This document shows, in pieces, positions 17,283-45,731 of a DNA stretch of 64,000 bases (position 1 is the stretch's first letter; each line of letters opens with the position of its first letter). The translations under genes were made by a program, and so were the position numbers. The notes beneath the pieces are model-generated. The model was not told where the DNA came from. It worked only from the letters and a program-made list of their open reading frames with translations, and searched no databases. The DNA lies in NCBI RefSeq assembly GCF_001456935.1, contig NZ_KQ758485.1:172944-236943 (forward strand), in the 5' to 3' direction. The DNA is from [Bacillus] enclensis (GTDB taxonomy: Bacteria > Bacillota > Bacilli > Bacillales > Bacillaceae_B).

Positions 17283-17296
17283 TCACCACTTTTACG

Positions 17297-26055: not shown

Positions 26056-27036
26056 ATGGACGTCTCAAAGGTGGAATATCGTCTGGTAAATAAATCACAC
26101 ATCCAAAAACTTGAAAAAAAAATTACAGCTCACAAGAAAGAAATTGTTGTAAAAGTAAAAGCAGTTGGCGTGTGTATGACAGACTGTCTTAATTATAAAT
26201 ACAAAAACAATAACTACTTTGGTCATGAATTAGTGGGAGAGGTGCTAACTCCCTTCTCTTCATTTAAAAAAGGAGATAATGTAGTCATTCTACATCGATA
26301 TAGCTGTGGGACATGCATTTCCTGTAAACAAGCCCAGTTTCATTTATGCAAGAACTCCAAGAATACTGATACATGCTTTTCCAATTACTTAGTACTTGAT
26401 GAAAGGGCTGCCTCAAAATCATTTTATCGTATTCCAGAGGGGACCGATAATAGGTTATCTGAATTTGCCTATACTGATTCTCTTGCTTGCGTGCTTCATG
26501 CCTTAAAGAAAGTAGATCTAAGTAAAACAGAACACATCCTAATCCTCGGGAATGGATTCATGTCATTACTGTTTTATTACGCTCTTACTCTAATTTATAA
26601 AAAGAGAGCAAAAATAGTGGGAAGTAATAAAAAAAAGCAAAATTTGATATCTAGAAGTCTCAAGATAGAACAACTCGAATGTGGACAATTAAATGAACAA
26701 CATTTTGACTTATGCATAGATACAGCAGGACAGTCAAAATTGGTTTCTCAAATTCTGGTTTATTTAAAGCCTTCATCCTCTTTCCTCTGTTTTAGCGGAG
26801 TGAACTCTATAGGAGAATTATTTACTTTAAATTACCTTAGGAATAACGAAATCAATATTACATTTTCCAAGCATACGAATCCAGCAAGCATAAACGAAGC
26901 TATTAGTATCATAGACTCGGAACTTTTGCCCCTTAAGAAAATTATCACACCTTTTCAACCAGCCTCTAAGTTAGAGGGCATAATCAATAAAACATTGCAA
27001 AATGAAATCATAAGGGGAGGAGTCTTAATTGAGTAA
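26056..27036 (+). CDS. Zinc-dependent medium-chain dehydrogenase
   Basis: The 326-residue protein has catalytic zinc ligands in GVCMTDCLNY and GHELVGEV, and the four structural cysteines in CGTCISCKQAQFHLC, so it is a zinc alcohol-dehydrogenase-type oxidoreductase. The nucleotide-binding region is short and divergent (HILILGNGFMSLLFYYAL). It is the first gene of a nine-gene plus-strand operon with a sugar-phosphate cyclase. Dehydrogenases of this kind oxidise hydroxyls of cyclitols before transamination, and that role is inferred here. It overlaps the cupin gene by 8 bases. Confidence 0.85.
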   Translation: MDVSKVEYRLVNKSHIQKLEKKITAHKKEIVVKVKAVGVCMTDCLNYKYKNNNYFGHELVGEVLTPFSSFKKGDNVVILHRYSCGTCISCKQAQFHLCKNSKNTDTCFSNYLVLDERAASKSFYRIPEGTDNRLSEFAYTDSLACVLHALKKVDLSKTEHILILGNGFMSLLFYYALTLIYKKRAKIVGSNKKKQNLISRSLKIEQLECGQLNEQHFDLCIDTAGQSKLVSQILVYLKPSSSFLCFSGVNSIGELFTLNYLRNNEINITFSKHTNPASINEAISIIDSELLPLKKIITPFQPASKLEGIINKTLQNEIIRGGVLIE

Positions 27037-27379: not shown

Positions 27380-27395
27380 AAGGAGGAACAAGAGA

Positions 27396-28574
27396 ATGAG
27401 TGTATCTTCTAACTTTTTAGCATTTGAGCAGTTTGCAGGACTAACTACCAATTTAAAGGTCGAATATCACATTACAGAAACCTCTGATGTCTTTAATGTA
27501 AATAATCTTACCATTCAACAGAATTGTAAATCTAAAAAGCTATTGATTGTAACATCACCAACAGTATATAGGCTTTATGGTCATCAAATTACTGAATATC
27601 TTTCTTATCATTTTTCTGAAGATTCTTACAAAATAATCGTTATTGAGACGACAGAAGAAAACAAAGACTTTGATAATGTGATGAAGATATGTGAAGCGGG
27701 TAAGAATTTCGGGTTGGATCGACGCTCCCTTCTAGTGGCGATTGGTGGTGGGATCTTAATGGATATGGTAGGTTTCGCCGCTTCCATGTATAAGCGGAAA
27801 ATTGATTATATTCGTATCCCTACAACGTTAGTAGGCCAAATAGATGCCGGAGTCGGTGTGAAAACAGGTGTAAACTTCAAAGGATCAAAAAATTTCATTG
27901 GAGCATTTCACCCGCCGTACAGTGTAATCAATGATACCAGTCTATTATATACCCTTGAAAAAGATGAATTGATTTGTGGATTAGCTGAAATTATTAAAAT
28001 GGGTATTATTGTTGATGCCCAACTATTTGAACTAGTTAACACTTATGGCTTTTCCCTGGTTGACTCAAATTTTCAAGGAAATCTCGAAGCTGCCAATTCA
28101 ATAAATCAAAAAGCCGTACAGCGAATGCTTGAACAACTTGAGTCTAATTTATTTGAATTATTCTTGGAGAGACTGGTTGATTTTGGTCATACTTTCAGTC
28201 CATTTATTGAAGAGTTTTCAAATTATCAGATTAAACATGGAATAGCAGTAGGTTATGACATGGCGATTTCAACTGAAATTTCCTATTTATTAAATAGAAT
28301 ATCCAAAAAAGATAGGGATAAGATTTTGACCACATTAATGAAGATAGGCATTAACATCTATCATAAGGAAACCTTTATCGCTGAAAAAATGTGGAACTCA
28401 TTAAATAATATAGTTTTGCACAGGGGTAATAAATTGAATTTAGTTATCCCCACAGGTATAGGACAATCAGACTTCCTAAGAGAGTTAACCAACTTAAGTC
28501 CGGAATTATTACATCAAGCAATCGAAAACTTGGCAGCTTACCAATACTCATACACTGAGGGGATATTAACTTGA
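27396..28574 (+). CDS. Sugar-phosphate cyclase (2-epi-5-epi-valiolone / dehydroquinate synthase family)
   Basis: This 392-residue enzyme has the NAD-binding GGG (residues 117-119), the motif IPTTLVGQIDAGVGVKTGVN, KNFIGAFHPP, and the three metal ligands Glu198 (GLAEIIKMG), His265 (VDFGHT) and His281 (KHGIAVGYDM). The family turns a sugar phosphate into a carbocycle: dehydroquinate, 2-deoxy-scyllo-inosose or valiolones. The DAGVGVKTGVN wording and the neighbouring kinase and aminotransferase suggest a C7- or C6-cyclitol synthase rather than the aromatic-pathway enzyme. Sequence alone does not settle which product is formed. Confidence 0.85.
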   Translation: MSVSSNFLAFEQFAGLTTNLKVEYHITETSDVFNVNNLTIQQNCKSKKLLIVTSPTVYRLYGHQITEYLSYHFSEDSYKIIVIETTEENKDFDNVMKICEAGKNFGLDRRSLLVAIGGGILMDMVGFAASMYKRKIDYIRIPTTLVGQIDAGVGVKTGVNFKGSKNFIGAFHPPYSVINDTSLLYTLEKDELICGLAEIIKMGIIVDAQLFELVNTYGFSLVDSNFQGNLEAANSINQKAVQRMLEQLESNLFELFLERLVDFGHTFSPFIEEFSNYQIKHGIAVGYDMAISTEISYLLNRISKKDRDKILTTLMKIGINIYHKETFIAEKMWNSLNNIVLHRGNKLNLVIPTGIGQSDFLRELTNLSPELLHQAIENLAAYQYSYTEGILT

Positions 28575-29590
28575 GAGGGGTCGTAGTTTTCGATATTGGA
28601 GGTACGTATACAAGGTCGGGTTTGTTTACTGAGACAGGAAGAATTTTAAATGTGGAAAAAGATTCTTCACCTAATTTCAATAGTAATGAATCCATCTATG
28701 ATCTTCAAGAACAATTGCTTGAGTATGTTAAACGTAAGGTTTTGGAGATTGATAAAGCTACTTCCATTTCCATAGAAGAGGTAGGGATTGCCTTTCCTGG
28801 ACCTATAACGAAAGATGGGTGTGTGTTAAAAGCTCCTACATTATGGGGAGAAGCAGGTGTAAAGTTTCCTATGAAAGACAAGCTAGAAAGCTTACTAGAT
28901 GGAATAAGTGTTACGGTAATCAATGATTTGACCGCAGCCGGCTATAGGTACATGAAATCATCCCTCAAAAGCTTTGGATTGATTACCATTAGCTCCGGAG
29001 TTGGGAATAAAGTCTTTTGGAATGAAGAAACCCTCCTTAATGATAATGGTGCTGGAGGAGAATTAGGTCATTACGTCTATAAAGATTCAGAATTCCCTAA
29101 CTTAATATGTGATTGCGGATCTTATTCACACATAGGCGCGATTGCTTCCGGGCGCGGCATGGAACAGCTTGCAAATCAAATGCGTGTGAAATATTCCCAT
29201 TTATTAAGTGATTCCCCCCTTAGAAACCTAAATAAGATTACTACCTTTGAATTAGTAGAAGGAATCAGACATAAAGATCCATTTTCCGAAGCAGTTTTAA
29301 GAAAAGGTATTACTCCAATAGCTAACGCCATTTTGTTTATGCATAACCTAATGGGCTTGGAAGATTTCATCATCATTGGTGGATTCGCTTTGGCTATTAG
29401 AGAGGAATACAAAAAAGAGCTTTGTCACCAGCTAAGTCAATCCATTTATTTTGGCTTAGAAAATAAAAACATTAAAGATATGATTCACATGGGAGTAGAA
29501 GATGACTTAAATGGGTTAATCGGGATGGGGATATATGTATTCAAACATATGAAGAAGGATAACAGACATATGGAGGTTCAAACTGGATGA
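28571..29590 (+). CDS. ROK-family sugar/cyclitol kinase
   Basis: The 339-residue protein has the ATP motif VVFDIGGTYTRSGLF, the catalytic region VINDLTAAGYRY and GAGGELGHYVY of ROK kinases. The usual zinc motif CxCGxxGC is replaced by CDCGSYSHIG, so metal binding may differ. In acarbose and validamycin pathways a glucokinase-like enzyme phosphorylates the valiolone product, and the overlap of 4 bp (TTGA) with the cyclase gene supports a similar step. It starts at TTG 28571. Confidence 0.82.
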   Translation: MRGVVVFDIGGTYTRSGLFTETGRILNVEKDSSPNFNSNESIYDLQEQLLEYVKRKVLEIDKATSISIEEVGIAFPGPITKDGCVLKAPTLWGEAGVKFPMKDKLESLLDGISVTVINDLTAAGYRYMKSSLKSFGLITISSGVGNKVFWNEETLLNDNGAGGELGHYVYKDSEFPNLICDCGSYSHIGAIASGRGMEQLANQMRVKYSHLLSDSPLRNLNKITTFELVEGIRHKDPFSEAVLRKGITPIANAILFMHNLMGLEDFIIIGGFALAIREEYKKELCHQLSQSIYFGLENKNIKDMIHMGVEDDLNGLIGMGIYVFKHMKKDNRHMEVQTG

Positions 29591-30834
29591 TTACTATTAA
29601 AGAAAAATTTGATTACTTAACTCGAAATACATGGCCAAATGAAGCTACTTCCCCCGTAGTAAAAGGGGATGGAATTTACTTTTGGGATGAAAACAATAAG
29701 AAATATATGGACTTTTCAAGTCAAACGCTTAATTTATTGCTCGGTCAATGTTATCCGGCCATCGTAGAGGCTCTTACTGAACAAATAAAAACCTTGACTT
29801 ATGCATCAAGCAGATTTGGAAGTTCCGCATATTTAGAGGCAGCAAAAAGAATTGTCAGGGTTGCCCCCAAGGGATTTACTCGTATAAATATTAAAATGTG
29901 CGATGGTTCAGATGCTAATGAGACAGCTCTTAAAACAGCAAAAAAATTCACTGGTAAGCCTGGTGTTATTTCATTCCATAAAGCTCATACCGGCCAAACC
30001 ACTCAGACTTTGCATGTTCGAGGATATGCCAGAGATGAAAGGACCTTATTAGGAAGTACTGAAGATGTCACTTTTATTTCACCTCCTTCATGTCAGGAAA
30101 AGGGAGATTATAAACATTCGTTAAAGGAGTTTGAAGAAGTTATTACGAAGCACGGCGGTATTGGAGCTGTGCTAGTAGATCCAATGATGGTAAACGCAGG
30201 TGTTCTGGTAAACGAGGAAACATCCGCGTATTTAAAAGGAATTGAAGCGCTATGTCACCGATATAATGTAATGTTCATTCTCGATGAAAACCAAAGTTTT
30301 GGATGGGTTCCTGGAATATTTGCTGCAAACTATTATGATATTTCACCAGATATCATTACACTTGGAAAAGGCTTATCTTCAGGGCACCCTTTAGCAGGTG
30401 TTCTAGTTAAAGAAAAGTATAAAGAAGCACTTGATTATAATGAAGCCGACTTTACGCATGGAGGTCATGTTCTAACATGCAGGGCTGCAGCAACAACTAT
30501 TGAAACTTTAGAAACCGTAGATTTTCACCTCCTTGAAAAGGAGAAAAAGATTGAATCTGAAATTAGAGATCTCCAGTCCAAAGCGAATTTCCCATTGATT
30601 CATCGGGGGGTAGGGTTGATTCATGGGTTGGAATTCGCGACCGAAGACGAAGAAAGAAATAGTGTAATGGCAAACAGTATATTTGAGACAGCATTAAGAA
30701 AAGGGCTTTTTCTCAGGAAGTATAATAACAAAATCATTCTTAAACCGCCAGTAATTGTTAGTGAAGAAGAAATCGAAAAGGCATTTGCAATCTTGAGCAG
30801 TTCGTTTAAGGAGGAGGGTTTACTATTAAACTAG
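29587..30834 (+). CDS. Class III PLP-dependent aminotransferase
   Basis: This 415-residue enzyme resembles glutamate-1-semialdehyde aminomutases and class III transaminases: the cofactor aspartate region FILDENQSFGW and the PLP lysine in ITLGKGLSSGHP (Lys261). It probably puts an amino group onto a ketone of the cyclitol, giving an aminocyclitol. It overlaps the kinase gene by four bases (ATGA), which indicates tight coupling. Confidence 0.85.
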   Translation: MITIKEKFDYLTRNTWPNEATSPVVKGDGIYFWDENNKKYMDFSSQTLNLLLGQCYPAIVEALTEQIKTLTYASSRFGSSAYLEAAKRIVRVAPKGFTRINIKMCDGSDANETALKTAKKFTGKPGVISFHKAHTGQTTQTLHVRGYARDERTLLGSTEDVTFISPPSCQEKGDYKHSLKEFEEVITKHGGIGAVLVDPMMVNAGVLVNEETSAYLKGIEALCHRYNVMFILDENQSFGWVPGIFAANYYDISPDIITLGKGLSSGHPLAGVLVKEKYKEALDYNEADFTHGGHVLTCRAAATTIETLETVDFHLLEKEKKIESEIRDLQSKANFPLIHRGVGLIHGLEFATEDEERNSVMANSIFETALRKGLFLRKYNNKIILKPPVIVSEEEIEKAFAILSSSFKEEGLLLN

Positions 30835-31754
30835 GATTATTCACACGAGTCTATCAGCATTTAGAGCCCGAAGAGGCGTTTCCCAAAATTAACGGGCTTG
30901 GGATTCAATCAATTGAAGTAGTATCAAATAAAGGAAGTAAGCACTTTGACCTGGAACAAGCATTGTCCCTGAATTATTTATCAAACTATCAGAAACTGTT
31001 AGAAAAACATCAACTAAAAATAGAAGCACTGACTATGCATCGCGATTCGCAACTAATTATGGGGCCGCATGGAGATGCCACTCAGCGTTTCTTCAAGGGT
31101 ACTCCTGATGAACAAGTTGAATACGGAAAACAAAGACTCATGAAAGCCGCAGAAGTCGCTAATGAATACGGAATACCGAAAATCACTGGATTTATGGGGG
31201 CAGGAGAATTTTCATCTTGGTATCCATGGCCCCACTCTGAGGGTTGGAAGCAGCAGCAAAACTTGGCGTATGAAAGATGGATGCCCATACTCGAGTACTA
31301 CGAAAAGCTTGGGGTGAAATTTGCTCATGAAGTTGGACCTCAACAACTGGCATATAACTTGGAGACAACCCAAGAGATATTAGAAATTTTAAACATAGAT
31401 TCCTTTGGAATATGTTTCGATCCATCAAACTTTATTTTAACAGGGGTAAACCCGTGTATATTTGTAGAGGAGATTGGTTCAAAAATCTTCCATGTTCATG
31501 GGAAAGATTCAGAGTTAACACATCACGTCTCATCTTCGGGGTGGATGGCTCATGGAGATCTTTCAAGACCAGACAGAGGGTTCAGGTTTAGAATACCCGG
31601 ATGGGGAGATGTGAATTGGAAAAAGGTGTTAACCACATTAAAGTTAAATGGCTATAATGATGTCATTTCAATAGAAATTGAGGATCCAACAATGGATTCG
31701 GAAGAAGCTCTAGAAAAAACGATTGACCATTTAAAACCATTACTATTTAAATAA
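30825..31754 (+). CDS. TIM-barrel sugar epimerase/isomerase (xylose isomerase-like) with an apparent ATT start
   Basis: From the ATT at 30825 the frame encodes 309 residues beginning (M)KLGLFTRVYQHLEPEEAF, the usual first strand of xylose-isomerase-like TIM-barrel enzymes (IolE/IolI/tagatose epimerase group). Metal-site segments are FAHEVGPQQ, GICFDPSNF, IFHVHGKD and VISIEIEDP. AAGGAGG ends 7-8 bp before the ATT, and no ATG, GTG or TTG lies nearer; the first one (TTG 30963) would cut away about 46 conserved residues. It overlaps the aminotransferase gene by 10 bases. It likely isomerises or epimerises the cyclitol. Confidence 0.82.
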   Translation: MKLGLFTRVYQHLEPEEAFPKINGLGIQSIEVVSNKGSKHFDLEQALSLNYLSNYQKLLEKHQLKIEALTMHRDSQLIMGPHGDATQRFFKGTPDEQVEYGKQRLMKAAEVANEYGIPKITGFMGAGEFSSWYPWPHSEGWKQQQNLAYERWMPILEYYEKLGVKFAHEVGPQQLAYNLETTQEILEILNIDSFGICFDPSNFILTGVNPCIFVEEIGSKIFHVHGKDSELTHHVSSSGWMAHGDLSRPDRGFRFRIPGWGDVNWKKVLTTLKLNGYNDVISIEIEDPTMDSEEALEKTIDHLKPLLFK

Positions 31755-31765
31755 GAGGTGTTTGT

Positions 31766-32446
31766 TTGGAGTTACTTCTATCTAATTTTATCGGTTATCA
31801 TTATTTTTCTCACAAAAAAATATTTGAGGAAAACCTCTACCCGTGGGAACTATTAAGAGAACTTCCTTCCTATATTGAAAGATACCTGCAACAGGAAAAA
31901 GAACTAATTGGGACGATGAATTTTCTAGGCCCAAAAATCATAGTGGGAAAGAATGTCACCATAGAAGAAGGAGCGTTCATTAAAGGACCGGCGATTATTG
32001 GGGATGATGTTCAAATCAGGCACGGGGCCTATATTAGAGAAAATGTAATTATTGGAGATAATTGCAAGATAGGACATTGCAGTGAGATTAAGCATTCTCT
32101 GATTGTAAACGGTTCAAACGTTCCCCATTTTAACTATATAGGCGATTCAATTATAGGGAAAGAGGTTAACTTTGGAGCTGGATCTATATGTTCTAATTAT
32201 AAGAATCTCCCGTACGGCAGTGAAATCAATATCACTGCCGAGGGAGGCACGATTTCAACAGGACTCACACATTTTGGAGCAGTGGTGGGAGACGGCAGCA
32301 AGATAGGCTGTAACACCGTACTCAATCCCGGTACTATCCTTGGGAGAGGAGTAGTTACTTACTCTAATTTATCTTTAAGAGGAATCATTGAAGCAGGTCA
32401 CCTAATAAAATCTCCTGACATAGAAGGGAAAGTGGTTATCCGATGA
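31766..32446 (+). CDS. Left-handed beta-helix transferase (GlmU C-terminal-like)
   Basis: The 226-residue protein is built of hexapeptide repeats from residue ~55 (VGKNVTIEEGAFIKGPAIIG) and includes NVPHFNYIGDSIIGKEVNFGAGS, close to the acetyltransferase half of GlmU. It lacks a nucleotidyltransferase domain: the first 50 residues are helical. N-acylation of an amino sugar or aminocyclitol is the obvious guess. The TTG at 31766 follows GAGGTG. Confidence 0.8.
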   Translation: MELLLSNFIGYHYFSHKKIFEENLYPWELLRELPSYIERYLQQEKELIGTMNFLGPKIIVGKNVTIEEGAFIKGPAIIGDDVQIRHGAYIRENVIIGDNCKIGHCSEIKHSLIVNGSNVPHFNYIGDSIIGKEVNFGAGSICSNYKNLPYGSEINITAEGGTISTGLTHFGAVVGDGSKIGCNTVLNPGTILGRGVVTYSNLSLRGIIEAGHLIKSPDIEGKVVIR

Positions 32447-33066
32447 ATGAAATACTCAATTGGGCTAAACAAATACAAGCCTTGGCTCAGAACGGATTAA
32501 CATACGGAAAAGATAAGTATGATCTACAAAGATATGAAGAGTTACGTACTTTGGCAGTAGAGATGATGTCAACTGCATCAGGGGTCAAAGATCACTCAGT
32601 GCTGAGGGAGTTATTTGCAAATGAAACGGGTTACCAAACCCCTAAAGTTGATGTAAGGGGAGTAGTGTTTAATAGTGATAATGAAATTCTGCTTGTAAGA
32701 GAACTGGAGGACTCTAAATGGTCACTTCCGGGAGGCTGGGCGGATATTGGTGTTTCTGTTAAAGAAATGGCCGCTAAAGAAGTGGAAGAGGAGTCAGGTT
32801 ATATCGTGGAGCCATTCAAAGTGCTTGCTGTGTTTGATAAGAAACATCATCCCCACCCTCCATCACCATATCACGTGTACAAAATTTTCATTCAATGCCG
32901 CAGTATTCAAAAGGCACATGAGGGAGATCAAATAGAAACGGACAAAATCGGATTCTTTAATTTGGAAAACTTGCCAGTATTATCAGAGGAAAGGGTTACC
33001 GAATCTCAACTAAAGATATTGTTTAATCACGCTACAAATCCTATGAGGCAGACTGATTTTGACTAA
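32443..33066 (+). CDS. NUDIX hydrolase with N-terminal helical domain
   Basis: This 207-residue protein has a helical N-terminal domain (NWAKQIQALAQNGLTYGKDKY) and a NUDIX box within GGWADIGVSVKEMAAKEVEEESG. This two-domain form is common in ADP-ribose or nucleotide-sugar pyrophosphatases. Within the operon it may split an NDP-cyclitol or act in nucleotide recycling. It overlaps the previous gene by 4 bases (ATGA). Confidence 0.85.
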   Translation: MNEILNWAKQIQALAQNGLTYGKDKYDLQRYEELRTLAVEMMSTASGVKDHSVLRELFANETGYQTPKVDVRGVVFNSDNEILLVRELEDSKWSLPGGWADIGVSVKEMAAKEVEEESGYIVEPFKVLAVFDKKHHPHPPSPYHVYKIFIQCRSIQKAHEGDQIETDKIGFFNLENLPVLSEERVTESQLKILFNHATNPMRQTDFD

Positions 33067-33081
33067 TAAGGAGATGGGGAC

Positions 33082-34668
33082 GTGGAATTAAGTTTTGTTA
33101 CGGAATACGGACCAACTTATTTAGCTGTTCCGGAAAAAAAACAACATATAGAATTTATTGAGCCGACTTATTTTGAACTAGATGAGAAAGAACACTTCAC
33201 ATATATTGCAGATAAAAATAAAGCCTATACTATAAAGGAAAAATACTTAATTGAAGTACCGAAAATGTTCATTGGCAGACCTGAGCAGAAAGCCATAATC
33301 TTAGACGAAAATAATAAAGCAGTTGATTACCGCAGAATTCTTCACACTCATTGGAAAGAACGAATTGAAATTAAATACGATAATAAATCTTATCTTTTTC
33401 ATTTTGACCCTGTTTATGAACCTGAGGTTATCCAGTTAATCAACAATTCATTAGCATTACTGACAATTAGGAAAAGACAAATTGTTGTACTCATAAACAA
33501 GGATGGAGATATACTTTGGCAATTCGGAGAAGATATGATACCTGGAAAAGGAAAGCAATTGAAAGTTCCTATATTTTCTCTGTTTTTAAAAGACACGAAA
33601 ACAATTTTAATGTGTGATGGATTGAACTCCAGGGTCTTGGAATCCGACTTATCAGGTGAAATCATCTGGCAGTATGGAATGGAAGAAAGACTTGGAGCGA
33701 GTGAAGGGTTATTGTGGAAGCCTACGTGTGCAAGACGTACCAAAGAAGGTGAAACATATATTGCCGATTCAAAGAATAAAAGAATTTTGGTTGTCAATCA
33801 GAAAAAAGAAATTATAAATCAATATGGACAATCCCTGATCAATGAATTGAAACTTAATTATCCCCGGTCAGTTCAAGAAATGCCAAATGGGAACTGGTTG
33901 ATAACCAATACCCATAAAAATAGTATAATTGAAGTAGACCCTATTAATATGAAGGTTGTTTATGAAATCAATAATATAAAAGACCAGCTGGGATTGTATT
34001 GGCCCCGCTGTGCGTACTATAACAAGTTCAACTCCGAAATTATTATCTGTGATGGTCTGAACAACAGAATATTATTTGTCGATTATACTTCAAAAAAGCT
34101 TAAAAAGGTCATTCATGCATATACAGAAGGAAGTAACGAACATCCTATGAGTGATCCTCACCATCTTGATATGCCACAAAACGAACATAATAAACTACTA
34201 ATCACATTATCTGAATCGCATGAGGTAGTAGAAATTGATTATGAAGGAAACTTGATAAGAAAATGGACAGGACTGAATGATCCTCACTCAGCTTCTTATT
34301 TTCCAGAAGGAATTGTTGTATCCGACTCAAATAATCATCATATAAAAATATATTACGATAATGGTAAAGAAGAGGTCGTTGATCATTTTTTTACTCCTGA
34401 GGGAGAAGCAGATTCCTTTAACAGACCCAGGTTTTCAGTTTATTATAATGATGGGCTGCTAGTAATGGATACTGCTAATCATAGAATTGTGTATGTTAAG
34501 AAAGTGGAGACCAAATGGAGAGGTTCATTAGTAGATATTAAGTTTCCTCGAAACATAAGGTTAAACAACCTTGATAATTCACGTTGGATAAACCTTTTGC
34601 ACAATCAATCCATTCTTTTAACTGACACGGAAAATTGTCGTATTATGAAATTGGAAATAAAAAGTTAA
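33082..34668 (+). CDS. Large beta-propeller protein (NHL/PQQ-like repeats)
   Basis: The 528-residue soluble protein, with no signal peptide, shows repeated blades with wording such as ILWQFGEDM, IIWQYGMEE, TYIADSKNKRILVVN, NWLITNTHKNSIIEVD and IIICDGLNNRILFVD. This is the pattern of NHL or arylsulfotransferase-like propellers. It starts at GTG 33082 behind AAGGAGATGGG. It is the last gene of the cyclitol operon. It may be a sugar-acting enzyme or a binding scaffold; the catalytic residues cannot be read. Confidence 0.78.
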   Translation: MELSFVTEYGPTYLAVPEKKQHIEFIEPTYFELDEKEHFTYIADKNKAYTIKEKYLIEVPKMFIGRPEQKAIILDENNKAVDYRRILHTHWKERIEIKYDNKSYLFHFDPVYEPEVIQLINNSLALLTIRKRQIVVLINKDGDILWQFGEDMIPGKGKQLKVPIFSLFLKDTKTILMCDGLNSRVLESDLSGEIIWQYGMEERLGASEGLLWKPTCARRTKEGETYIADSKNKRILVVNQKKEIINQYGQSLINELKLNYPRSVQEMPNGNWLITNTHKNSIIEVDPINMKVVYEINNIKDQLGLYWPRCAYYNKFNSEIIICDGLNNRILFVDYTSKKLKKVIHAYTEGSNEHPMSDPHHLDMPQNEHNKLLITLSESHEVVEIDYEGNLIRKWTGLNDPHSASYFPEGIVVSDSNNHHIKIYYDNGKEEVVDHFFTPEGEADSFNRPRFSVYYNDGLLVMDTANHRIVYVKKVETKWRGSLVDIKFPRNIRLNNLDNSRWINLLHNQSILLTDTENCRIMKLEIKS

Positions 34669-34677: not shown

Positions 34678-34705
34678 AGAGACCGAGTACTTTACTCGGT
34701 CTTTG
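34678..34705. terminator. Bidirectional terminator between the cyclitol operon and the RiPP-like operon
   Basis: A 9-bp perfect stem (GACCGAGTA / TACTCGGTC) with a three-base loop, A-rich on the left and T-rich on the right, lies between convergent stop codons only 50 bp apart. Confidence 0.85.
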
Positions 34706-34718: not shown

Positions 34719-35348
34719 TTAAAAAGGAATAGTTTCTAATGCCTTTATGAATCGGCTATATTTACTTTCAGTAGATACTTTGTACTCAATATTCAATTCA
34801 TTAATAATAGCCACACATTCTATCTCGTCCTTTTCCGACAGGTTTTCAATTTCTAATTCATATTCAACATGGTTGTCTGGGAAGGTTGTTTTATCTAAAT
34901 CAATCAATCGATTATTATCAGTTGTAACCTGAATACGTTGATTTGATAGTTTGCCAATATAGATGGCTCTATTAAGAGTTTCTGATACTTGAGTACTGGC
35001 CAAAAATTCTTTGATTTCCTCATTATTCGAGCCTCCAAAGTATGTGGCAAGGTCTTTCTTTTTGTTGAGTAAATCTGAAGCTTCTGAAGGTGTAAGTGAA
35101 ACGGATAGTTCATCAGATAATACTTTTTGATTTTGATCAATTGAATTTCTGATCTTTAAAGTAAGGGTGTATTTGCCATTATACTCTCTAACCCTCAATG
35201 TCGAGCCTGTTTTGCTTAATCTGTATCCAGGTGTGTCAAAGTAATAATTAATCTGATTTATTTGTTTCGCTTTATCAAACCGATTTAGCACTTTAACATA
35301 AGAATCCTCTGATAGTAATAGTTTTATTTCTCTTTCTTGTTCTATCAT
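34719..35348 (-). CDS. CYTH-domain protein
   Basis: This protein of about 209 residues begins with the CYTH signature EQEREIKLLLSE (ExExK) and has LRVREYNGKYTLTLKIR and a late EYELEIENL strand. CYTH proteins bind triphosphates in a beta-tunnel and include thiamine triphosphatase, adenylate cyclase and tripolyphosphatase. It ends the minus-strand operon with the peptide genes. ATG 35348 is better spaced from AAGGGG than the TTG at 35357. Its place next to an exporter is unusual, and a role in a nucleotide-dependent modification is possible. Confidence 0.82.
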   Translation of the reverse strand: MIEQEREIKLLLSEDSYVKVLNRFDKAKQINQINYYFDTPGYRLSKTGSTLRVREYNGKYTLTLKIRNSIDQNQKVLSDELSVSLTPSEASDLLNKKKDLATYFGGSNNEEIKEFLASTQVSETLNRAIYIGKLSNQRIQVTTDNNRLIDLDKTTFPDNHVEYELEIENLSEKDEIECVAIINELNIEYKVSTESKYSRFIKALETIPF

Positions 35349-35365
35349 TTGACTCAATCCCCTTA

Positions 35366-36175
35366 TTAGTAAAAAGTTAAATTACCGTTAACCCTCGCAT
35401 GGCGCTCTGCTCTCTTTACGACTAGCAGCGTTATCAAAAGCATAAGGGCTAGTTCAATGACTAAGTACCATAGACTATTAATGGAAGCCGGTGACAGTGT
35501 GCCAAGCAATAGTAAGTCTCTAATGACAAAGAGTACATGTGTCAAAGGAAAGATAAATCCGATTACCTGGGCCCAAACCGGAAAGAGTGCAACCGGAATT
35601 CTGACTCCTGAAAAAAGCATCATAGGGTCATCGAGAATCATAAACAAAATGGAAGCGTCTCTTGAGAACAGGAATATGGCGTTCAATAACCCTCCCCAAA
35701 ACGTAGCAGTTACAATAATAAGCAAAAAACAAACTGGTAAGTAAATGATATGGGCAATAGGAATGGCACCGATGATAAAAAGCATAAAGATAGTGAATAC
35801 AAAGAACATCCAAATGTTTTCAAAAAGCGCCCCCAAAGTCCGGCCGTAAAGAATGGACAAGCGGTTAGCTGGTGATAAAAAGATGGTTTCCAACGTTCCA
35901 TTCGATCTTTCATAGCTCATTTGCCACGCACTTTGCATAAGTGATTTGAAAGAAAGGTACGTTAAAAAACCTATCAACAGAAAGGAGATTAACTGATCAT
36001 AGCTATCCAACTGAATGAATTTCAGATTGTCGAGACTAAAGGGTTTATAGCTGAAGTAGGCGTTGGAAAAATGTAAAATGGGCCATATTAACAGCGAAAA
36101 ATAGGTGATTTTCGAATGAAATGAGTTGCGATGCTGCTTGTAAATCTCACCCTTAACTACTTTTAACCAATTCAT
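35366..36175 (-). CDS. ABC-2 type transporter permease
   Basis: A 269-residue protein with six membrane segments. An ABC-2 permease motif lies around residues 85-115 (MSYERSNGTLETIFLSPAN) and a conserved loop PVALFPVWAQVIGFIFPLTHVL. It pairs with the ATPase that it overlaps by 23 bases. The second permease of the complex is encoded at 37175. Confidence 0.87.
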   Translation of the reverse strand: MNWLKVVKGEIYKQHRNSFHSKITYFSLLIWPILHFSNAYFSYKPFSLDNLKFIQLDSYDQLISFLLIGFLTYLSFKSLMQSAWQMSYERSNGTLETIFLSPANRLSILYGRTLGALFENIWMFFVFTIFMLFIIGAIPIAHIIYLPVCFLLIIVTATFWGGLLNAIFLFSRDASILFMILDDPMMLFSGVRIPVALFPVWAQVIGFIFPLTHVLFVIRDLLLLGTLSPASINSLWYLVIELALMLLITLLVVKRAERHARVNGNLTFY

Positions 36176-37163
36176 ATTCCTTGTCTCCTTCTCTGTTGGT
36201 TAAAGCCAGCAGTGCATCTTCCAGGTTGGAGTCTTCGGTTTTAAAGCTTAGGATACTCACACCATGATTTGAAATAATGGTTACGACATCAGAAGTAATA
36301 TCTTCTTTTGCTGAAATAGTAATAGTAGTGATACCATTTTCTTCAACTGTGTGCAGCCGCGCATGCTTCATGTTGGTATACTCTTTTAGCTCCTGCTTCA
36401 ATTTCAGGGTTGAAGATTCCACGATAACCTTTAAGTTTGTCTCAGGGATGACTTTTGATATTATGTCTGAAGGGGATCCTTCCATCAACAGTTCACCCTG
36501 ATTGATGATATAAACCCAATCACACAGTTCTTCTACTTCTGAGAGATAATGAGTTGTCAACAATATCCCCTTTTTTTCAACTTTTGACAGTTTTTTGATA
36601 TAGTGCCTCAATTCTTTGGCAATGCTGACGTCCAGCCCTAAGGTTGGCTCATCCAAGAATAAATACTTAGGATCATTAATTAACCCCCTGGCGATTTGTA
36701 ACCGCTGTTTCATTCCTTTTGAATATCTTTCAACAGGGGTTTTTGTATCCTTCAACCCTACCAATGCCAATGAATAGTCTATGTAAAGGTTAAGTTCTTT
36801 TTTGGATAGCCCATATAGAGCGCCGAAGTATTCGAGGTTTTCCCTTGCTGAAAGTCTCCAGTATAAATTTCTTTCTCCCCCGGTAATGACATTAACCATT
36901 TTCTTTACCCGTTGAGGGTGCAATATGGCATCGATTCCATCTACTTCAACTGTACCGGTTGTAGGTTCGAGGATAGAAGATAATATTTTGATCGTCGTAC
37001 TTTTACCTGCGCCGTTAATCCCTAATAATCCGGTGATTTTTCCAGGCTCTATTGTAATATCCAAGTGTTTTAATGCCTCGATCTCTCTTTTTTTTGAAAA
37101 AGAAAAAAATTTCTCCTTTTCCTTGACTGTATATGTTTTACTTATTCCTTTTGCTAGTAACAT
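36153..37163 (-). CDS. ABC transporter ATPase (peptide exporter)
   Basis: This 336-residue ATPase has Walker A GLLGINGAGKST, signature YSKGMKQRLQIARGL, Walker B YLFLDEPTLGLD and switch His in TTHYLSE. A C-terminal extension of about 100 residues follows the nucleotide domain, typical of ABC-2 exporters of the NatA/BcrA/YydI type. The operon context suggests export of, or immunity to, the processed 19-residue peptides. Confidence 0.9.
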   Translation of the reverse strand: MLLAKGISKTYTVKEKEKFFSFSKKREIEALKHLDITIEPGKITGLLGINGAGKSTTIKILSSILEPTTGTVEVDGIDAILHPQRVKKMVNVITGGERNLYWRLSARENLEYFGALYGLSKKELNLYIDYSLALVGLKDTKTPVERYSKGMKQRLQIARGLINDPKYLFLDEPTLGLDVSIAKELRHYIKKLSKVEKKGILLTTHYLSEVEELCDWVYIINQGELLMEGSPSDIISKVIPETNLKVIVESSTLKLKQELKEYTNMKHARLHTVEENGITTITISAKEDITSDVVTIISNHGVSILSFKTEDSNLEDALLALTNREGDKEYELVKSS

Positions 37164-37174: not shown

Positions 37175-37981
37175 CTAATTAAAGGTATTTTCGAGCAACT
37201 TTTTCTCTACCTTCTTTAACCAAAAAAGTCCTATAGAACAATATAAAACTCCCAATAGTACAATGTGGAAAATTTCGAATAAATGGCTTCCCAGACTTTC
37301 TCCAGTCATGACTTGACGAAACAATGCCAATGCAGGGGATAAAGGGAAAATAGAAGACAAAATCTGAACAGGGGACGGCAAGTATTCGATAGGAAATGAA
37401 ACCCCGCAAACCAGACTCATCACAATAAAAAGTGTATTTTGTGTGATATATGTGTCACGTAAATACAGCATGAGAGTAGCAACAAATATACCTACACAGA
37501 ATAGGGATAAGACAGTAAGAATAATGACCAGTATGACCTCAAATGGCTGAGCAATCAGAAATTTGGCCCCCAGCAGCAAACTAAACAAAATGACAGTCAG
37601 GAACTCAAGGGTGGACCTGCCCAATTGCTCCATGAAAACTCCAAAAAAATAACCCATCCGTGAGCTGGGGGAAAGCAGGAAGTTCTCTAGTGTTCCTTCT
37701 ACATTTTCAAGCATCAATGACCTTCCTACATTCATAAGGATAGAAATTGAAAGGATATATAGACCTGCACCGAGGACCGAAAAACTCATGTAGTCAACTC
37801 CATTGCTGTATTCCATAAAACGACTATCCATTTCTCCGTTGAACATGTAGTAATAGGTAAAATAAGCAAAGACAGCAACGTATATTCCCATAAGGACACG
37901 GGCAATGAAAAATGACCATGGAAAGGCGCGCTGCGATACGATATGATTTCTTTTCATAGTGGCGAGTATAACTTTATTCAT
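37175..37981 (-). CDS. ABC-2 type transporter permease
   Basis: The 268-residue permease has six membrane segments and the motif NVEGTLENFLLSPSSRMGYFFG, matching that of the permease at 35366 (NGTLETIFLSPANRLSILYG). The two are likely the halves of one exporter. The ATG follows AAAGGAGAG, and the gene overlaps the protease gene by 8 bases. Confidence 0.87.
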   Translation of the reverse strand: MNKVILATMKRNHIVSQRAFPWSFFIARVLMGIYVAVFAYFTYYYMFNGEMDSRFMEYSNGVDYMSFSVLGAGLYILSISILMNVGRSLMLENVEGTLENFLLSPSSRMGYFFGVFMEQLGRSTLEFLTVILFSLLLGAKFLIAQPFEVILVIILTVLSLFCVGIFVATLMLYLRDTYITQNTLFIVMSLVCGVSFPIEYLPSPVQILSSIFPLSPALALFRQVMTGESLGSHLFEIFHIVLLGVLYCSIGLFWLKKVEKKLLENTFN

Positions 37982-38642
37982 AATGGTACTCTCCTTTAAT
38001 GACGGGTGCCTGATCTTTTTTTTCTTTTCTTGAAATGTTGTAGTGTACAGCAGTGATTATCATGCTTGGCAGATTATAAATGAAGTGTCCTATGATGGCA
38101 GACAGAATCGATCCGGTAAAGACATAACTTGTATACCATACCAGGCTTAAACCGAATAATATAAGATATGTCTTTGCATCAAAGAAATTCCGGGTGTAAT
38201 CTTGTATATAATGAGCCAAACTGAACAAAAACCCTGATAGTAACATTCCAATTAGAAAATTAGAACTTGGAACAAAGCTTCGATAGAAAATCTCTTCAAA
38301 GACAGCACTACCTATTAGTGATATTTCCATGATGATAAAATGCTTAAATGAAAGTTGAGGCAAAAGTTTATAAAAAGACTTGTTCATATAAGGTTTGAAT
38401 TCCTGATATTTAATACATAGGGCAATGAGGGCTGCAAGTATACTAATCGCGTAAAATACCAATCCTCCCTTTAGTTCAAAGCTTGGTAAACCATAATATA
38501 AAGCGGGGAGGATAAATGGGATAAAAAACAACACGTTTCTTATTACATCTGATAATAAACTGCCTTTTATTGCTCTAATAAACTTTAAACTTGTTTTCAT
38601 GAACAAGAAAACTAACAGAAAAAGGAATATTTCTTTCATCAT
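37974..38642 (-). CDS. CPBP-family (CAAX-type) intramembrane protease
   Basis: This roughly 222-residue protein has multiple membrane segments and the CPBP/Abi motifs: AVFEEIFYRSFVP (EExxxR), FSLAHYIQD and IIGHFIYN with the metal-type histidines. Such proteases are regular members of bacteriocin and RiPP loci, where they process the peptide or give immunity. I chose ATG 38642, 8 bp behind GGAG. It is the first gene after the three peptide genes, so leader cleavage or immunity is a reasonable guess. Confidence 0.85.
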   Translation of the reverse strand: MMKEIFLFLLVFLFMKTSLKFIRAIKGSLLSDVIRNVLFFIPFILPALYYGLPSFELKGGLVFYAISILAALIALCIKYQEFKPYMNKSFYKLLPQLSFKHFIIMEISLIGSAVFEEIFYRSFVPSSNFLIGMLLSGFLFSLAHYIQDYTRNFFDAKTYLILFGLSLVWYTSYVFTGSILSAIIGHFIYNLPSMIITAVHYNISRKEKKDQAPVIKGEYHYE

Positions 38643-38660
38643 TGTCGTCACTCCAATGCT

Positions 38661-38682
38661 AATAATGTGGATAAAGGGCGCC
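38661..38682. repeat. Left arm of a 22-bp inverted repeat bracketing the peptide genes
   Basis: The arm ends in AAAGGGCGCC. It matches the complement of 39011-39032 in 21 of 22 positions. The pair encloses 328 bp containing all three peptide genes and no other gene. Confidence 0.85.
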
Positions 38683-38719: not shown

Positions 38720-38779
38720 TTATGCAAGCTCCATTGCAACTGGAAGCTTAACTTTAACTAGTACTGGTTTTTTGTACAT
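38720..38779 (-). CDS. 19-residue RiPP-like precursor peptide (copy 3)
   Basis: This minute gene encodes MYKKPVLVKVKLPVAMELA, identical in protein sequence to copy 2 although five codons differ by synonymous bases. An AGGTGA site precedes the ATG by 5 bp. The 105-bp spacing from copy 2 and conservation of flanking sequence show gene duplication with selection on the peptide. The M-Y-K-K-P start resembles the PqqA precursor (M-W-K-K-P), and a PqqD-like gene lies upstream. No post-translational change can be read from sequence. Confidence 0.85.
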   Translation of the reverse strand: MYKKPVLVKVKLPVAMELA

Positions 38780-38825
38780 GTAAGTCACCTACTTTCTAAA
38801 GAGTTTTGAGAAAAAAGGATAATAA

Positions 38826-38885
38826 TTAAGCAAGTTCCATTGCAACTGGAAGCTTAACTTTAACTAATACTGGCTTTTTGTACAT
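38826..38885 (-). CDS. 19-residue RiPP-like precursor peptide (copy 2)
   Basis: It encodes MYKKPVLVKVKLPVAMELA with a GAGGTGA site 6 bp before the ATG. It lies 45 bp after copy 1 and 46 bp before copy 3. Together with copy 3 it is the majority form of the peptide. Conserved Pro5, Pro13, Glu17 and alternating Val/Lys residues would make an amphipathic strand. Confidence 0.85.
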   Translation of the reverse strand: MYKKPVLVKVKLPVAMELA

Positions 38886-38930
38886 GTTCGGTCACCTCAC
38901 ATTTATTGAATTTAATAAAAATTAATGGGA

Positions 38931-38990
38931 TTAAACTAGCTCCACAGCAACTGGAAGCGTAACTTTAACTAATACCGGCTTTTTGTACAT
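38931..38990 (-). CDS. 19-residue RiPP-like precursor peptide (copy 1, variant)
   Basis: It encodes MYKKPVLVKVTLPVAVELV, which differs from copies 2 and 3 at residues 11 (Thr for Lys), 16 (Val for Met) and 19 (Val for Ala). A GGGAGGTGAT site lies 5 bp before the ATG. It is the copy closest to the PqqD-like gene. The invariant first ten residues fit a leader recognised by PqqD, and the variable tail fits a core. Confidence 0.85.
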   Translation of the reverse strand: MYKKPVLVKVTLPVAVELV

Positions 38991-39010
38991 GAGAGATCAC
39001 CTCCCGAAAA

Positions 39011-39032
39011 GGCGCCCTTTACCCACATTATT
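39011..39032. repeat. Right arm of the 22-bp inverted repeat bracketing the peptide genes
   Basis: It begins GGCGCCCTTTAC. It pairs with 38661-38682 with one mismatch. In the transcript the two arms could form a long stem that encloses the peptide genes. In the DNA they could serve as recombination sites. Confidence 0.85.
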
Positions 39033-39054
39033 AACAAGGAGTTCGTTTTACAGG

Positions 39055-39315
39055 TCAGCTGGCTTCAATTAAACCGCCCTTTTGTAATTCCCTTAAGTAT
39101 TTTTCTATATCTCTTTTAATCTCTTTAGAAGTTACTGAGTAGCTCTCAGCAATTTTATCGATTATTTCTTCCCCGCTATTAATTCCATCTATTAACTCCC
39201 AAACCTTTACTCCAACTTCATCCAATATAAAAGCTTCACCCTTATGGACCAAATAAGGCTGTGATTCTACAATCCTGTATCTAACGAACATATTTTTTTG
39301 ATATTTCATAACCAT
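39055..39315 (-). CDS. PqqD-like peptide chaperone (RiPP recognition element)
   Basis: The 86-residue protein fits PqqD in length and pattern: an N-terminal strand pair (FVRYRIVESQPYLVHKGEAFILDEVG), then VWELIDGINSGEEIIDKIAESYSVT and a last helix DIEKYLRELQKGGLIE. PqqD folds as a winged-helix RRE that binds the leader of a ribosomal peptide and hands it to the modifying enzyme. The three peptide genes follow directly downstream. It is preceded by a strong GGAGGAAGG site. Confidence 0.88.
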   Translation of the reverse strand: MVMKYQKNMFVRYRIVESQPYLVHKGEAFILDEVGVKVWELIDGINSGEEIIDKIAESYSVTSKEIKRDIEKYLRELQKGGLIEAS

Positions 39316-39324
39316 TCCTTCCTC

Positions 39325-40140
39325 CTACTTTAAAATGATTTGGGCTTTCATAATCAAACCTTGAGTGAAATTAACTACATTAAAAGCATATTCTTTGATT
39401 GTTTCTTCAGAGAAAGGATAGCTGTCTAATTGAAGAAATAGTTTCAATAAATCTCCTTCAGGATTCTCAGTTGTATACCGGAGCAACTTCCGATAAATCC
39501 ACTTTTCCCCGGGATTTGTTTCTCCGACACTTGCCAAGTATGCATTCACTGCATTTTTTAGCAACAGCTTAACTACAACATAGGCTGTACCTAAATCATT
39601 AGATGATAAAGCACCTTCAAGGTCTTCCAGATAGCCGTCGTATTTTTCAATCGTTGTAACAACGATATATTTATTTAGGTTTTCAAAATTAATCTCTTCT
39701 TTCATTGTCTTGAATGTTTCTTCATGCAACAAAGGACTTGCAAATTTCAGCCTATGCAGTAAATCAACATCATCTGCTGGTAACCTTGAGATATGTTCAT
39801 CGGTATTGAAGTTTAAGCTATTTAATTCATTTATAATCGTATGAAAATGAGAAGAGGAATAATATTCAAAATCATACCTTACATCATTGATCACGATATT
39901 CTTAATCAGGCTTTCCCCTACCTTCATAGTGGCTTCCCGTGCATGTCTTTTGTGATTGTTTAGCAGCTTCTCAGGCTCTTCACTGATGACAAAAACATCA
40001 ACATCAGATGATTCATTACCGAACCCTTCCATGATTGATCCTGCAATATAGAGATAATCGATATTTTTGTTGTTATTTTTTACTTCTGGAAACAACTCCA
40101 AAATTTCTAATTTGTCTTCGATACCCTTAACTAAGCTCAT
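39325..40140 (-). CDS. Nucleotidyltransferase-fold protein
   Basis: This 271-residue protein has the polymerase-beta-type motif YIAGSIMEGFGNESSDVDVFV, with Gly34-Ser35 and the two aspartates Asp46 and Asp48, followed by a helical C-terminal domain. Members transfer nucleotides to small molecules, proteins or peptides. It is the first gene of the operon, 9 bp before the PqqD-like gene, and is the best candidate for the enzyme that modifies the peptide. The AAAGGAGAGAGG site lies at ideal distance. Confidence 0.85.
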   Translation of the reverse strand: MSLVKGIEDKLEILELFPEVKNNNKNIDYLYIAGSIMEGFGNESSDVDVFVISEEPEKLLNNHKRHAREATMKVGESLIKNIVINDVRYDFEYYSSSHFHTIINELNSLNFNTDEHISRLPADDVDLLHRLKFASPLLHEETFKTMKEEINFENLNKYIVVTTIEKYDGYLEDLEGALSSNDLGTAYVVVKLLLKNAVNAYLASVGETNPGEKWIYRKLLRYTTENPEGDLLKLFLQLDSYPFSEETIKEYAFNVVNFTQGLIMKAQIILK

Positions 40141-40833: not shown

Positions 40834-41403
40834 TCAAATATCGTCATGTCTTCTAAAGTATTCATCTAAAGCTAGACGGAGTATTTCTGATTCTTTCTTT
40901 TTTTGTTTTTTTGCGATTGTTTTCAAACGTTCCAATTGATATTTATAATAGTAATTGCTTTTTAAGACTAAACTACCGTTATCTGGCTGGCATATCATAT
41001 TGCGTCCTTGTTGCTTTGCTTTATATAATCCTTCTTCTGCCCTTCTCAATACTTCTTCTGGTGTGTTTCCGTGTGAAGGTACACTGACTAGCCCTGCACT
41101 ATAGGTGACTTCAAACTTTCTGTCCCTTTCCCAGTAAAGCTTGAATTCAAAAAGCTGTTGGAAAGTTTTTTCTATACTTTCGTCTACAAAGAGTATAAAT
41201 TCATCTCTTCCGATATAATGAAATTCTTTAAAATTAGAACTTTCAAGCACCCTCCTAAAGTCAAGAATCAGCTCCTCAAGATTAAAAGACTTATCATTCC
41301 ACTTATCTAAATCTATCAAAGCCATACTAAAAACATTTTGTTCTTCCAATTTTGAATTAATTAAATGCAGCAATTCATCTTGAGATAAAATATTTATATT
41401 CAT
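40834..41403 (-). CDS. Degenerate GGDEF-domain protein with a ribbon-helix-helix-like tail
   Basis: This 189-residue protein has the GGDEF-fold pattern (FSMALIDLDKWNDKSF, YIGRDEFILFVDES, VTYSAGLVSVPSHG, RRAEEGLYKAKQQGRNMI), but the active site reads IGRDEF, so cyclase activity is doubtful. The last 25 residues (KKKESEILRLALDEYFRRHDD) look like a ribbon-helix-helix DNA-binding segment. No N-terminal sensor is present. The start has no ribosome site. Confidence 0.75.
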   Translation of the reverse strand: MNINILSQDELLHLINSKLEEQNVFSMALIDLDKWNDKSFNLEELILDFRRVLESSNFKEFHYIGRDEFILFVDESIEKTFQQLFEFKLYWERDRKFEVTYSAGLVSVPSHGNTPEEVLRRAEEGLYKAKQQGRNMICQPDNGSLVLKSNYYYKYQLERLKTIAKKQKKKESEILRLALDEYFRRHDDI

Positions 41404-45711: not shown

Positions 45712-45731
45712 CCGACTTTCCCCTTCCTCTA

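Follow-up and report, generated by a model that had tools for sequence, protein, structure and literature searches.

In microcin C, a nucleoside monophosphate (NMP) is joined through a phosphoramide to the C-terminal Asn of a peptide, and variable genes decorate the nucleotide (PMC9239234). Daptide clusters combine several short precursors, the motif ELExMEAP, nucleotidyltransferases (NTs) as accessories, and a recognition element (RRE) for ribosomally synthesized and post-translationally modified peptides (RiPPs) that is fused to an intramembrane site-2 protease (PMC10036551). In addition, an NT of a lasso peptide cluster decorates pseudomycoidin, hexoses being reported as attached to the phosphorylated lasso peptide (PMC8498205). 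We analysed a 64-kb stretch of [Bacillus] enclensis DNA, hereafter the window, in which an array of three 60-bp genes for 19-residue peptides is flanked by the genes for a PqqD-like RRE and a CPBP membrane protease, with the gene for a Pol-beta-type NT upstream. Comparison with related loci suggests that such peptides form a so far unrecognised ribosomal family with a nucleotide-like or sugar-like payload. The RiPP trait, an encoded precursor peptide beside modification genes, is present and conserved in 19 of 23 NT loci; because the chemistry is deduced from sequence, we file the set under the RiPPs, in which it is probably a new class.

The array lies in an apparent minus-strand operon (NT, PqqD-like protein, three peptides, CPBP, ABC-2 permease, ABC ATPase, ABC-2 permease, CYTH), which is faced by a convergent plus-strand operon at 26056-34668. 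The core genes are as follows.
39325..40140, minus strand: Pol-beta-superfamily NT of 271 aa that has GS...SDxD plus a third Asp (PF18765, PF01909, both above cut-off)
39055..39315, minus strand: PqqD-like RRE, 86 aa (PF05402, E 1.4e-14; family profile to TbiB1, 5v1u/5v1v, E 2e-13)
38931..38990, minus strand: precursor peptide copy 1, 19 aa, MYKKPVLVKVTLPVAVELV (among ranks 1-3 of 834 tiny open reading frames (ORFs), profile from other loci)
38826..38885, minus strand: precursor peptide copy 2, 19 aa, MYKKPVLVKVKLPVAMELA (ORF and held-out profile rank)
38720..38779, minus strand: precursor peptide copy 3, MYKKPVLVKVKLPVAMELA, protein identical to that of copy 2, the genes differing by 4 synonymous changes

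The coordinates and the start-to-start spacing of 105 and 106 bp agree with the three tandem genes with a period of about 105 bp described in an initial annotation of this DNA. Each gene is preceded by a Shine-Dalgarno-like stretch (GGGAGGTGA, GAGGTGA and a weaker AGGTGA), as that annotation had also stated. The transcript order is copy 1, copy 2, copy 3; copy 1, the closest to the PqqD-like gene, is the divergent one and differs at residues 11, 16 and 19 from the other two, whose proteins are identical, again as annotated. By Nei-Gojobori counts, copies 2 and 3 differ by four synonymous and no non-synonymous changes, and copy 1 differs from copies 2/3 by four and six synonymous and three non-synonymous changes. 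This mainly synonymous change fits purifying selection on the peptide, the selection that had been proposed for it. With a profile trained only on other loci, the three copies occupied ranks 1, 2 and 3 among the 834 tiny ORFs of the window, and they kept these ranks with the Tyr and Pro columns masked, indicating that the array is well beyond chance.

Related loci were collected by protein searches. With the NT as query, matches were obtained in 5 of 199 genomes (its own included), 7 plasmid records and 11 loci of genome contigs; a Paenibacillus NT added two plasmid records and a Nonomuraea NT none. PqqD as query gave four plasmid records, including pGeo12a of G. thermodenitrificans (L040); a single-protein PqqD scan of the genome contigs and a scan of viral contigs with query A3 gave no match. 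Duplicates were removed before counting (L024, L027 and L035, the same records as L014, L015 and L020, and L021, near-identical to L020), leaving 23 non-redundant NT loci, the window included. On the Bacillota side they come from the window, Bacillus, Fictibacillus, Brevibacillus, Paenibacillus, Parageobacillus, Geobacillus, Streptococcus mitis, Exiguobacterium, a Bacillota metagenome-assembled genome (MAG) and two more genomes of the window's order, and otherwise from Corynebacterium, Nonomuraea, Streptomyces, Agrobacterium and Neorhizobium. The NT profile matched all 23, including the L040 protein, which is annotated as hypothetical (E 4.9e-39). Loci in the training alignments match by construction in this search; L011 and L036-L040 lay outside those for NT, and L011, L012 and L036-L040 outside those for PqqD.

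PqqD was found in 19 of the 23 loci and CPBP in 17. A tiny YxxP-bearing peptide of 18-25 residues was likewise present in 19, which are exactly the loci with PqqD, and the four loci without PqqD (L011, L012, L036 and L039) have no peptide. By our own arithmetic, with the loci treated as independent, the chance of two such lists coinciding is 1 in 8855. This exact coincidence is the best evidence that the RRE and the peptide belong together. The initial annotation had proposed that the peptides are ribosomal precursors that work with a PqqD-type RRE and may be a new RiPP class, and had beforehand staked this on conservation in related loci. Such conservation was found for the class, and the proposal is well supported by the comparison; the 19-mer itself occurred in no genome but its own (1 of the 150 searched). 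The same counts bear on the possibility that the peptides are unmodified pheromones or small bacteriocins, for which CPBP and ABC-2 proteins would provide processing, immunity and export, with the NT and PqqD acting elsewhere. The basic N-terminus and hydrophobic C-terminus of the peptides would suit such a role, and unmodified peptides often have CPBP and ABC-2 genes as neighbours; however, the peptide accompanies PqqD in the same 19 of 23 loci, more strictly than CPBP (17/23), and the common motif is of the kind bound by this RRE group (PMC12710340). We consider this possibility very improbable.

In 16 loci the peptide lies between or beside the core genes NT, PqqD and CPBP, and in L013, L037 and L038 it precedes a TauD or asnB gene. 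Examples are MYKKPKLVKVKLPTALVNV from B. xiamenensis (with a slightly different second copy), MYKAPKLKSVKLLAGMENA from Brevibacillus, MNKYVKPVAVKVETPSAAVVVLHQ from L016, where four tandem copies encode three protein versions, MKKAYRKPEATKAEFGAIMAWPG from a Corynebacterium plasmid and MRKYTKPTAKTISQGTVLRDNA from a Streptomyces plasmid. We aligned 21 peptides without gaps, anchored at Tyr and with a single L016 version. Y+8 is Val or Ile in 18 of them, Y+9 is Lys in 15, Y+13 is Ala or Gly in 16, and the penultimate residue is Asn in 11; the core is variable and the leader kept. The peptides of 15 loci had been chosen by the YxxP pattern or by eye, in gaps adjoining core genes, and leave-one-locus-out profiles placed the peptide first in all 15. 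The larger set, with 105-834 tiny ORFs per locus, gave rank 1 in 18 of 19 loci and rank 2 in L037; L011, L012, L036 and L039 had no peptide to rank. With Tyr and Pro masked, rank 1 was retained in 12 of the 15 loci (L010 fell to 13, L029 to 10 and L016 to 2-3) and, with the larger training set, in 13 of the 19 (among the 15, the exceptions were then L010 at 4, L029 at 6 and L022 at 2). Twenty control sets of other YxxP ORFs reached rank 1 in only 0-3 of 19 loci, and in none of 19 when masked. No gene is listed at the peptide in any of the five plasmid records that have both a peptide and annotated neighbours (L009, L010, L037, L038 and L040), the PLSDB gene table being incomplete. If our interpretation is right, a RiPP class has been hidden because its precursors are too small for annotation, and a YxxP tiny ORF with NT and PqqD would be the key for mining it.

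At E 0.001, the window's genome contains no second PqqD-like gene. Against solved structures, the family profile matched TbiB1, which we take to be a lasso RRE, at E 2e-13, PqqD at 3.8e-11 and a lasso PqqD-family chaperone at 2.4e-10, and the best NCBIfam model, lasso_PqqD_Bac, stayed below its cut-off (40.7 of 80 bits). The YxxP leader is known for lasso peptides and is shared with the peptides here. These likenesses, with asnB beside the peptide in L037 and L038 and the report that Bacillota lasso clusters can hold an NT (PMC8498205), would be expected of a degenerate or minimal lasso-peptide system with a YxxP leader, a B1-like RRE and an NT as in the paeninodin and pseudomycoidin clusters. 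The window's genome, however, contained no transglutaminase-like B2 peptidase (PF13471) at E 0.001, a CPBP protease being found in its place. A Pfam scan limited to the genes of the two operons found no asparagine-synthetase-like cyclase. Moreover, the peptides comprise 8-12 residues from Y+9 onward, too few for a ring and a tail, whereas a lasso core after the leader has about 15-20 residues or more. We regard a lasso system as extremely improbable. The RRE group that includes the PqqD and lasso types is reported to bind W/Y/LxxP/L/I (PMC12710340). A fused NT-PqqD protein, read by eye in S. virginiae (L011), was rejected, since hhalign gave it a probability of 0.2% and the profile found no PqqD in L011.

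Pyrroloquinoline quinone (PQQ) biosynthesis also uses an RRE of the PqqD family, and PqqA starts with MWKKP, which the start of the window peptide resembles. To this extent the PqqA likeness drawn in the initial annotation stands; beyond the start it fails. No NCBIfam match appeared up to E 1 with a 22-aa reading of the peptide, very short queries having little power, and a scan limited to genes of the two operons found no PqqE-type radical S-adenosylmethionine (SAM) enzyme. The core of the window peptide also has no E..Y pair. Daptides resemble the present set in their several short precursors and in the pairing of an RRE with an intramembrane protease, but here the protease is of another family, the RRE is unfused and the motif is different.

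We next consider the NT. Its Pol-beta-type active site is kept: S35, S45, D46 and D48 are invariant and D90 nearly so in 18 NT sequences (L011 excluded, both L025 copies included, L036-L040 excluded), among which the L016 protein is without the third-Asp stretch. The nearest relative in the PDB is MntA (5yep, E 5.5e-5), an adenylyltransferase that modifies its partner protein (PMC7641770). Unlike in MNT/HEPN systems, the NT here is much longer, has an RRE as partner and is accompanied by no HEPN match among the operon genes (Pfam). The NT gene usually adjoins the PqqD gene. The Pol-beta fold also includes aminoglycoside NTs, and the NT may accordingly be read as a self-resistance or housekeeping enzyme for the cluster's nucleoside or aminocyclitol, with the RRE-peptide pair serving another modification. 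Cyclitol-type genes in the window, L009 and L038 would agree with this, as would the four of 23 NT loci that have neither PqqD nor peptide; yet the NT accompanies the peptide-RRE pair despite quite different payload genes, usually next to PqqD, and no other shared modification enzyme was seen in the core set. We judge this alternative improbable. Where annotation exists, the NTs of L011, L012, L036 and L039 have nucleotide genes for neighbours (NDK, tmk, pyrF, dihydroorotate dehydrogenase); these NTs may form a branch of the NT family that lacks the peptide.

The peptide, the NT, the RRE and in most cases the protease recur as a set across genera and phyla, and their neighbours change by locus, leaning to nucleotide or cyclitol chemistry, a character that the initial annotation had not described. 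An all-against-all comparison of 18 neighbourhoods found thymidylate-kinase-like genes in 10, ABC-2 permeases in 9, the major facilitator superfamily (MFS) in 6 and CYTH in 5, L009 and L010 having annotated MFS genes outside that MFS cluster, and it revealed no second modification enzyme common to the core set. Pfam supported nine of the ten thymidylate kinases tested, the exception being the L013 protein. In the window's genome, thymidylate-kinase-family genes (PF02223) number two in 4.48 Mb, with none on the window's contig; at that density, their presence in 9 of 17 twenty-kilobase loci has a probability of about 8e-15, a rough value with one genome as yardstick. Pfam families among the neighbours further included PurH-like/AICARFT, phosphoribosyltransferase, nucleoside phosphorylase, inositol monophosphatases and Nudix, together with Lar-type proteins (Ni_insertion, AIRC, NAD_synthase-like) and radical SAM enzymes at some loci. 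Orotidine monophosphate (OMP) decarboxylase, GTP cyclohydrolase II, SAM-hydroxide adenosyltransferase (SAM-HAT) and tryptophanyl-tRNA synthetase (TrpRS) were also found, and an NDK match stayed below the NCBI cut-off. L025 (below NCBI cut-offs) and L040 (by annotation) each have two thymidylate-synthase-like genes, and annotation places an inositol-1-phosphate synthase in L009 and an inosamine-phosphate amidinotransferase in L038. No Pfam family was obtained for L020 5691 and 7609, L016 12706, or L017 13117 and 14139.

Some loci contain recognisable payload modules. L040 (pGeo12a is a conjugative plasmid) and L025 (Brevibacillus) share one comprising QueA (by eye in L025), the two thymidylate-synthase-like genes, a phosphotransferase-like gene and Nudix. 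In L026 (5892-9676), LarB-, LarC- and LarE-like genes, DUF362 and a thymidylate kinase lie near the core genes, which suggests a nickel-pincer-type nucleotide as payload. Near the NT, L012 (an Exiguobacterium plasmid) has genes related to alanyl-tRNA synthetase (AlaRS) with an S66-family peptidase, and L017 has two TrpRS genes; these synthetases are possibly for immunity or biosynthesis. The TrpRS and AlaRS genes with the S66-family peptidase hint, at some loci and not in general, at synthetase-directed toxins with self-immunity.

Extra PqqDs stand directly before the thymidylate-synthase-like genes of L025 and L040, and the HAD phosphatase of L009 has a C-terminal PqqD-like stretch (hhalign 89.6%, E 1.9e-6), suggesting that payload enzymes act on peptide-bound material. 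This raises the alternative that the peptide is a disposable RRE-addressed carrier, on which the nucleotide or cyclitol is built and from which the protease frees a product with few or no peptide residues. Pearlin-type pathways provide a precedent, and a core that varies behind a kept leader, as well as tandem near-identical copies, as for an abundant substrate, would be in line with it. The core nevertheless retains preferences that a mere carrier would not need (Ala/Gly at Y+13 in 16/21, penultimate Asn in 11/21), and the export systems are compatible with both interpretations. We regard a pure carrier as unlikely.

In the window, the candidate payload genes form the convergent operon.
26056..27036, plus strand: zinc-type medium-chain dehydrogenase/reductase (MDR) family dehydrogenase (PF08240)
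27396..28574, plus strand: sugar-phosphate cyclase of the 3-dehydroquinate (DHQ) synthase family (nearest solved chains 4p53, 5tpr)
28571..29590, plus strand: ROK-family kinase (PF00480)
29587..30834, plus strand: class III aminotransferase (PF00202)
30963..31754, plus strand: xylose-isomerase-like TIM barrel (PF01261; weak IolE and IolO matches)
31766..32446, plus strand: hexapeptide-repeat acyltransferase (GlmU C-terminal-like)
32443..33066, plus strand: Nudix hydrolase (PF12535, PF00293)
33082..34668, plus strand: NHL-repeat protein (44% identical over 533 positions to a protein of L028, a Brevibacillus MAG, beside the same core genes)

The cyclase matched 4p53 (deposited as 'Cyclase', presumably ValA) at E 2.4e-66 and 5tpr (deposited as 3-dehydroquinate synthase) at 2.4e-61, more weakly the next DHQ synthase (7.2e-45) and 2-deoxy-scyllo-inosose synthase (8.4e-22), and its best NCBIfam model, 3-dehydroquinate synthase, lay below cut-off; we take it to be a C7-cyclitol synthase. 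The NHL protein shared with L028 ties the convergent operon to the peptide operon, and the former is the probable payload pathway. In L028, an NHL-repeat gene is split into three ORF pieces at 11033-12302, with an intact copy at 16126-17712.

Among the explanations weighed, we think it reasonably probable that the locus represents an undescribed RRE-guided RiPP family, in which a nucleotide or phospho-cyclitol made to order is attached to the peptide by the NT before trimming and export. In this scheme, the PqqD-like RRE would first grip the N-terminal YxxPxLxxV part of the 19-mer, as its relatives, the motif and the strict co-occurrence suggest. The Pol-beta-type NT would then transfer an NMP or a phospho-sugar or phospho-cyclitol, made by the variable enzymes, to the last ~9 residues. 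Since no core side chain is universal, the likeliest attachment point would be at or near the C-terminus, or at the penultimate Asn where present. The CPBP protease would remove the leader, and the ABC-2 transporter would export the conjugate. In the window's genome the payload would probably be an amino-cyclitol from the convergent operon, and the product would most likely be a peptide-nucleotide-type small molecule that serves as a weapon. More broadly, we tentatively envisage a class of pathways in which an RRE-addressed peptide of ~20 residues is the acceptor to which a Pol-beta-type NT attaches a nucleotide or carbocyclic analogue made to order (pyrimidine, purine, nickel-pincer-type or cyclitol). 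This would be a modular peptide-nucleotide chemistry independent of microcin C, in which payload modules are swapped while the core (peptide, RRE, NT, protease, exporter) stays fixed. Ribosomal peptides would thereby be joined to nucleoside and cyclitol chemistry, and new inhibitor candidates would be suggested.

Microcin C is similar in its very short ribosomal peptide, nucleotidyltransferase, exporter and variable nucleotide-decorating genes, and tRNA-synthetase genes and an S66-family peptidase occur beside some NT loci (L010, L017, L012). However, MccB is ThiF-like, whereas the NT here is of the Pol-beta type and is accompanied by an RRE, and Pfam found no ThiF among the scanned genes of both operons. 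The precursors here also have 18-25 residues with a leader-like half, and a C-terminal Asn is not the rule. Microcin C precursors are mostly of 7 residues (PMC6495379), so the earlier statement that the window peptides are among the shortest known precursors has to be dropped. In open-access PMC literature, covered mostly as listings and the starts of abstracts, we found no description of a class with these parts; nor was a paper found on an inositol-phosphate-synthase homologue making carbocyclic rings, an idea that we did not use.

Several observations weigh against the proposed scheme. The NT matches solved structures over only about 50 of 272 positions, and its occurrence without PqqD or peptide in four of the 23 loci (L011, L012, L036, L039) indicates that it has at least one role apart from them. 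By profile search, CPBP is absent from these four loci and also from L037 and L038. The peptide is kilobases from the NT in L013, L037 and L038 (~5 kb in L013 and L038; in L037 it is also recorded as next to an NT, on the opposite strand). Tyr and Pro are invariant in all 21 aligned peptides, partly by construction, as YxxP was the search criterion, and four of the 19 peptides (L013, L037, L038, L040) were found with the profile, as top match in L013, L038 and L040 and second in L037, ranks that are partly circular. Beyond the penultimate Asn (11/21), which is absent from the window peptides, no nucleophilic core side chain is conserved among the 21 peptides. The plus-strand operon is assigned to the cluster by its proximity and the shared NHL gene, no nucleotide kinase is encoded in the window cluster, and the window NT could serve the small molecule instead of the peptide. 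In addition, the family is sparse, occurring in 1 of 398 genomes of the phylum sample (the window's own) and in 5 of 397 of the order sample.

The array is further enclosed by an inverted repeat that the initial annotation had not described.
39011..39036: inverted-repeat arm, 26 nt, between PqqD and the first peptide (mRNA fold z -6.2)
38657..38682: partner arm, in the gap separating the last peptide from the CPBP gene (the sole such pair in the 64-kb window)

The arms, 328 nt apart and paired at 24 of 26 positions, enclose exactly the three peptide genes, and the mRNA fold is -119.1 kcal/mol, compared with -87.3 (sd 5.1) in 100 shuffles. Thirteen pairs of this kind (at least 15 nt, at least 90% paired, 100-400 nt apart) occur in 382,273 bases of 18 loci, five of which surround a peptide (window, L014, L015, L020, L023), while another encloses PqqD in L026; the count in 1,146,819 bases of a first-order Markov control was 19. 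The arm sequences differ between genomes, the structure being kept and the sequence not. Of 14 loci scanned, five have an enclosing repeat; in another five (L016, L022, L025, L028, L029), counted without a chance control, a short hairpin follows the peptide; and four (L009, L017, L019, L026) have neither. Owing to the hairpin that surrounds the array, the peptide segment of the mRNA probably has a stability of its own, by which the peptide would outnumber the enzyme; the hairpin would thus be an expression device for excess peptide.

The remaining features of the minus-strand operon and its flank are as follows.
37974..38651, minus strand: CPBP/Rce1-like intramembrane protease, proposed peptide cutter (PF02517, E 6e-11; EExxxR, FxxxH and HxxxN read by eye)
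37175..37981, minus strand: ABC-2 permease, proposed exporter (PF01061, PF12698)
36153..37163, minus strand: ABC transporter ATPase, proposed exporter (PF00005, E 8.5e-27)
35366..36175, minus strand: ABC-2 permease, proposed exporter (PF12698, PF01061)
34719..35357, minus strand: CYTH (triphosphate tunnel type) protein, the last gene of the operon (PF01928, E 3.2e-18)
34680..34702, minus strand: terminator-like hairpin 3' of the CYTH gene (consensus scan only)
40834..41403, minus strand: GGDEF-domain protein upstream of the NT, membership uncertain (homologue directly upstream of the NT in L023)

The GGDEF protein has a degenerate signature and its own 12/12 sigma-70-type promoter match at 41437-41410, in a scan that gave no excess of promoters over shuffles (27 vs 27.3), and a strong hairpin lies between it and the NT. 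Farther away, at 18058-18444 and 18462-19838 on the minus strand, a small protein that looks secreted and contains six DEIFPPLPD repeats adjoins an HTH-TPR regulator that is RNPP-like by eye and has homologues in L014 and L016; the repeat protein may be the precursor of a pheromone in multiple copies. At 43888-47726, the window contains a tandem pair of genes that appear by eye to encode large dynamin-like GTPases.

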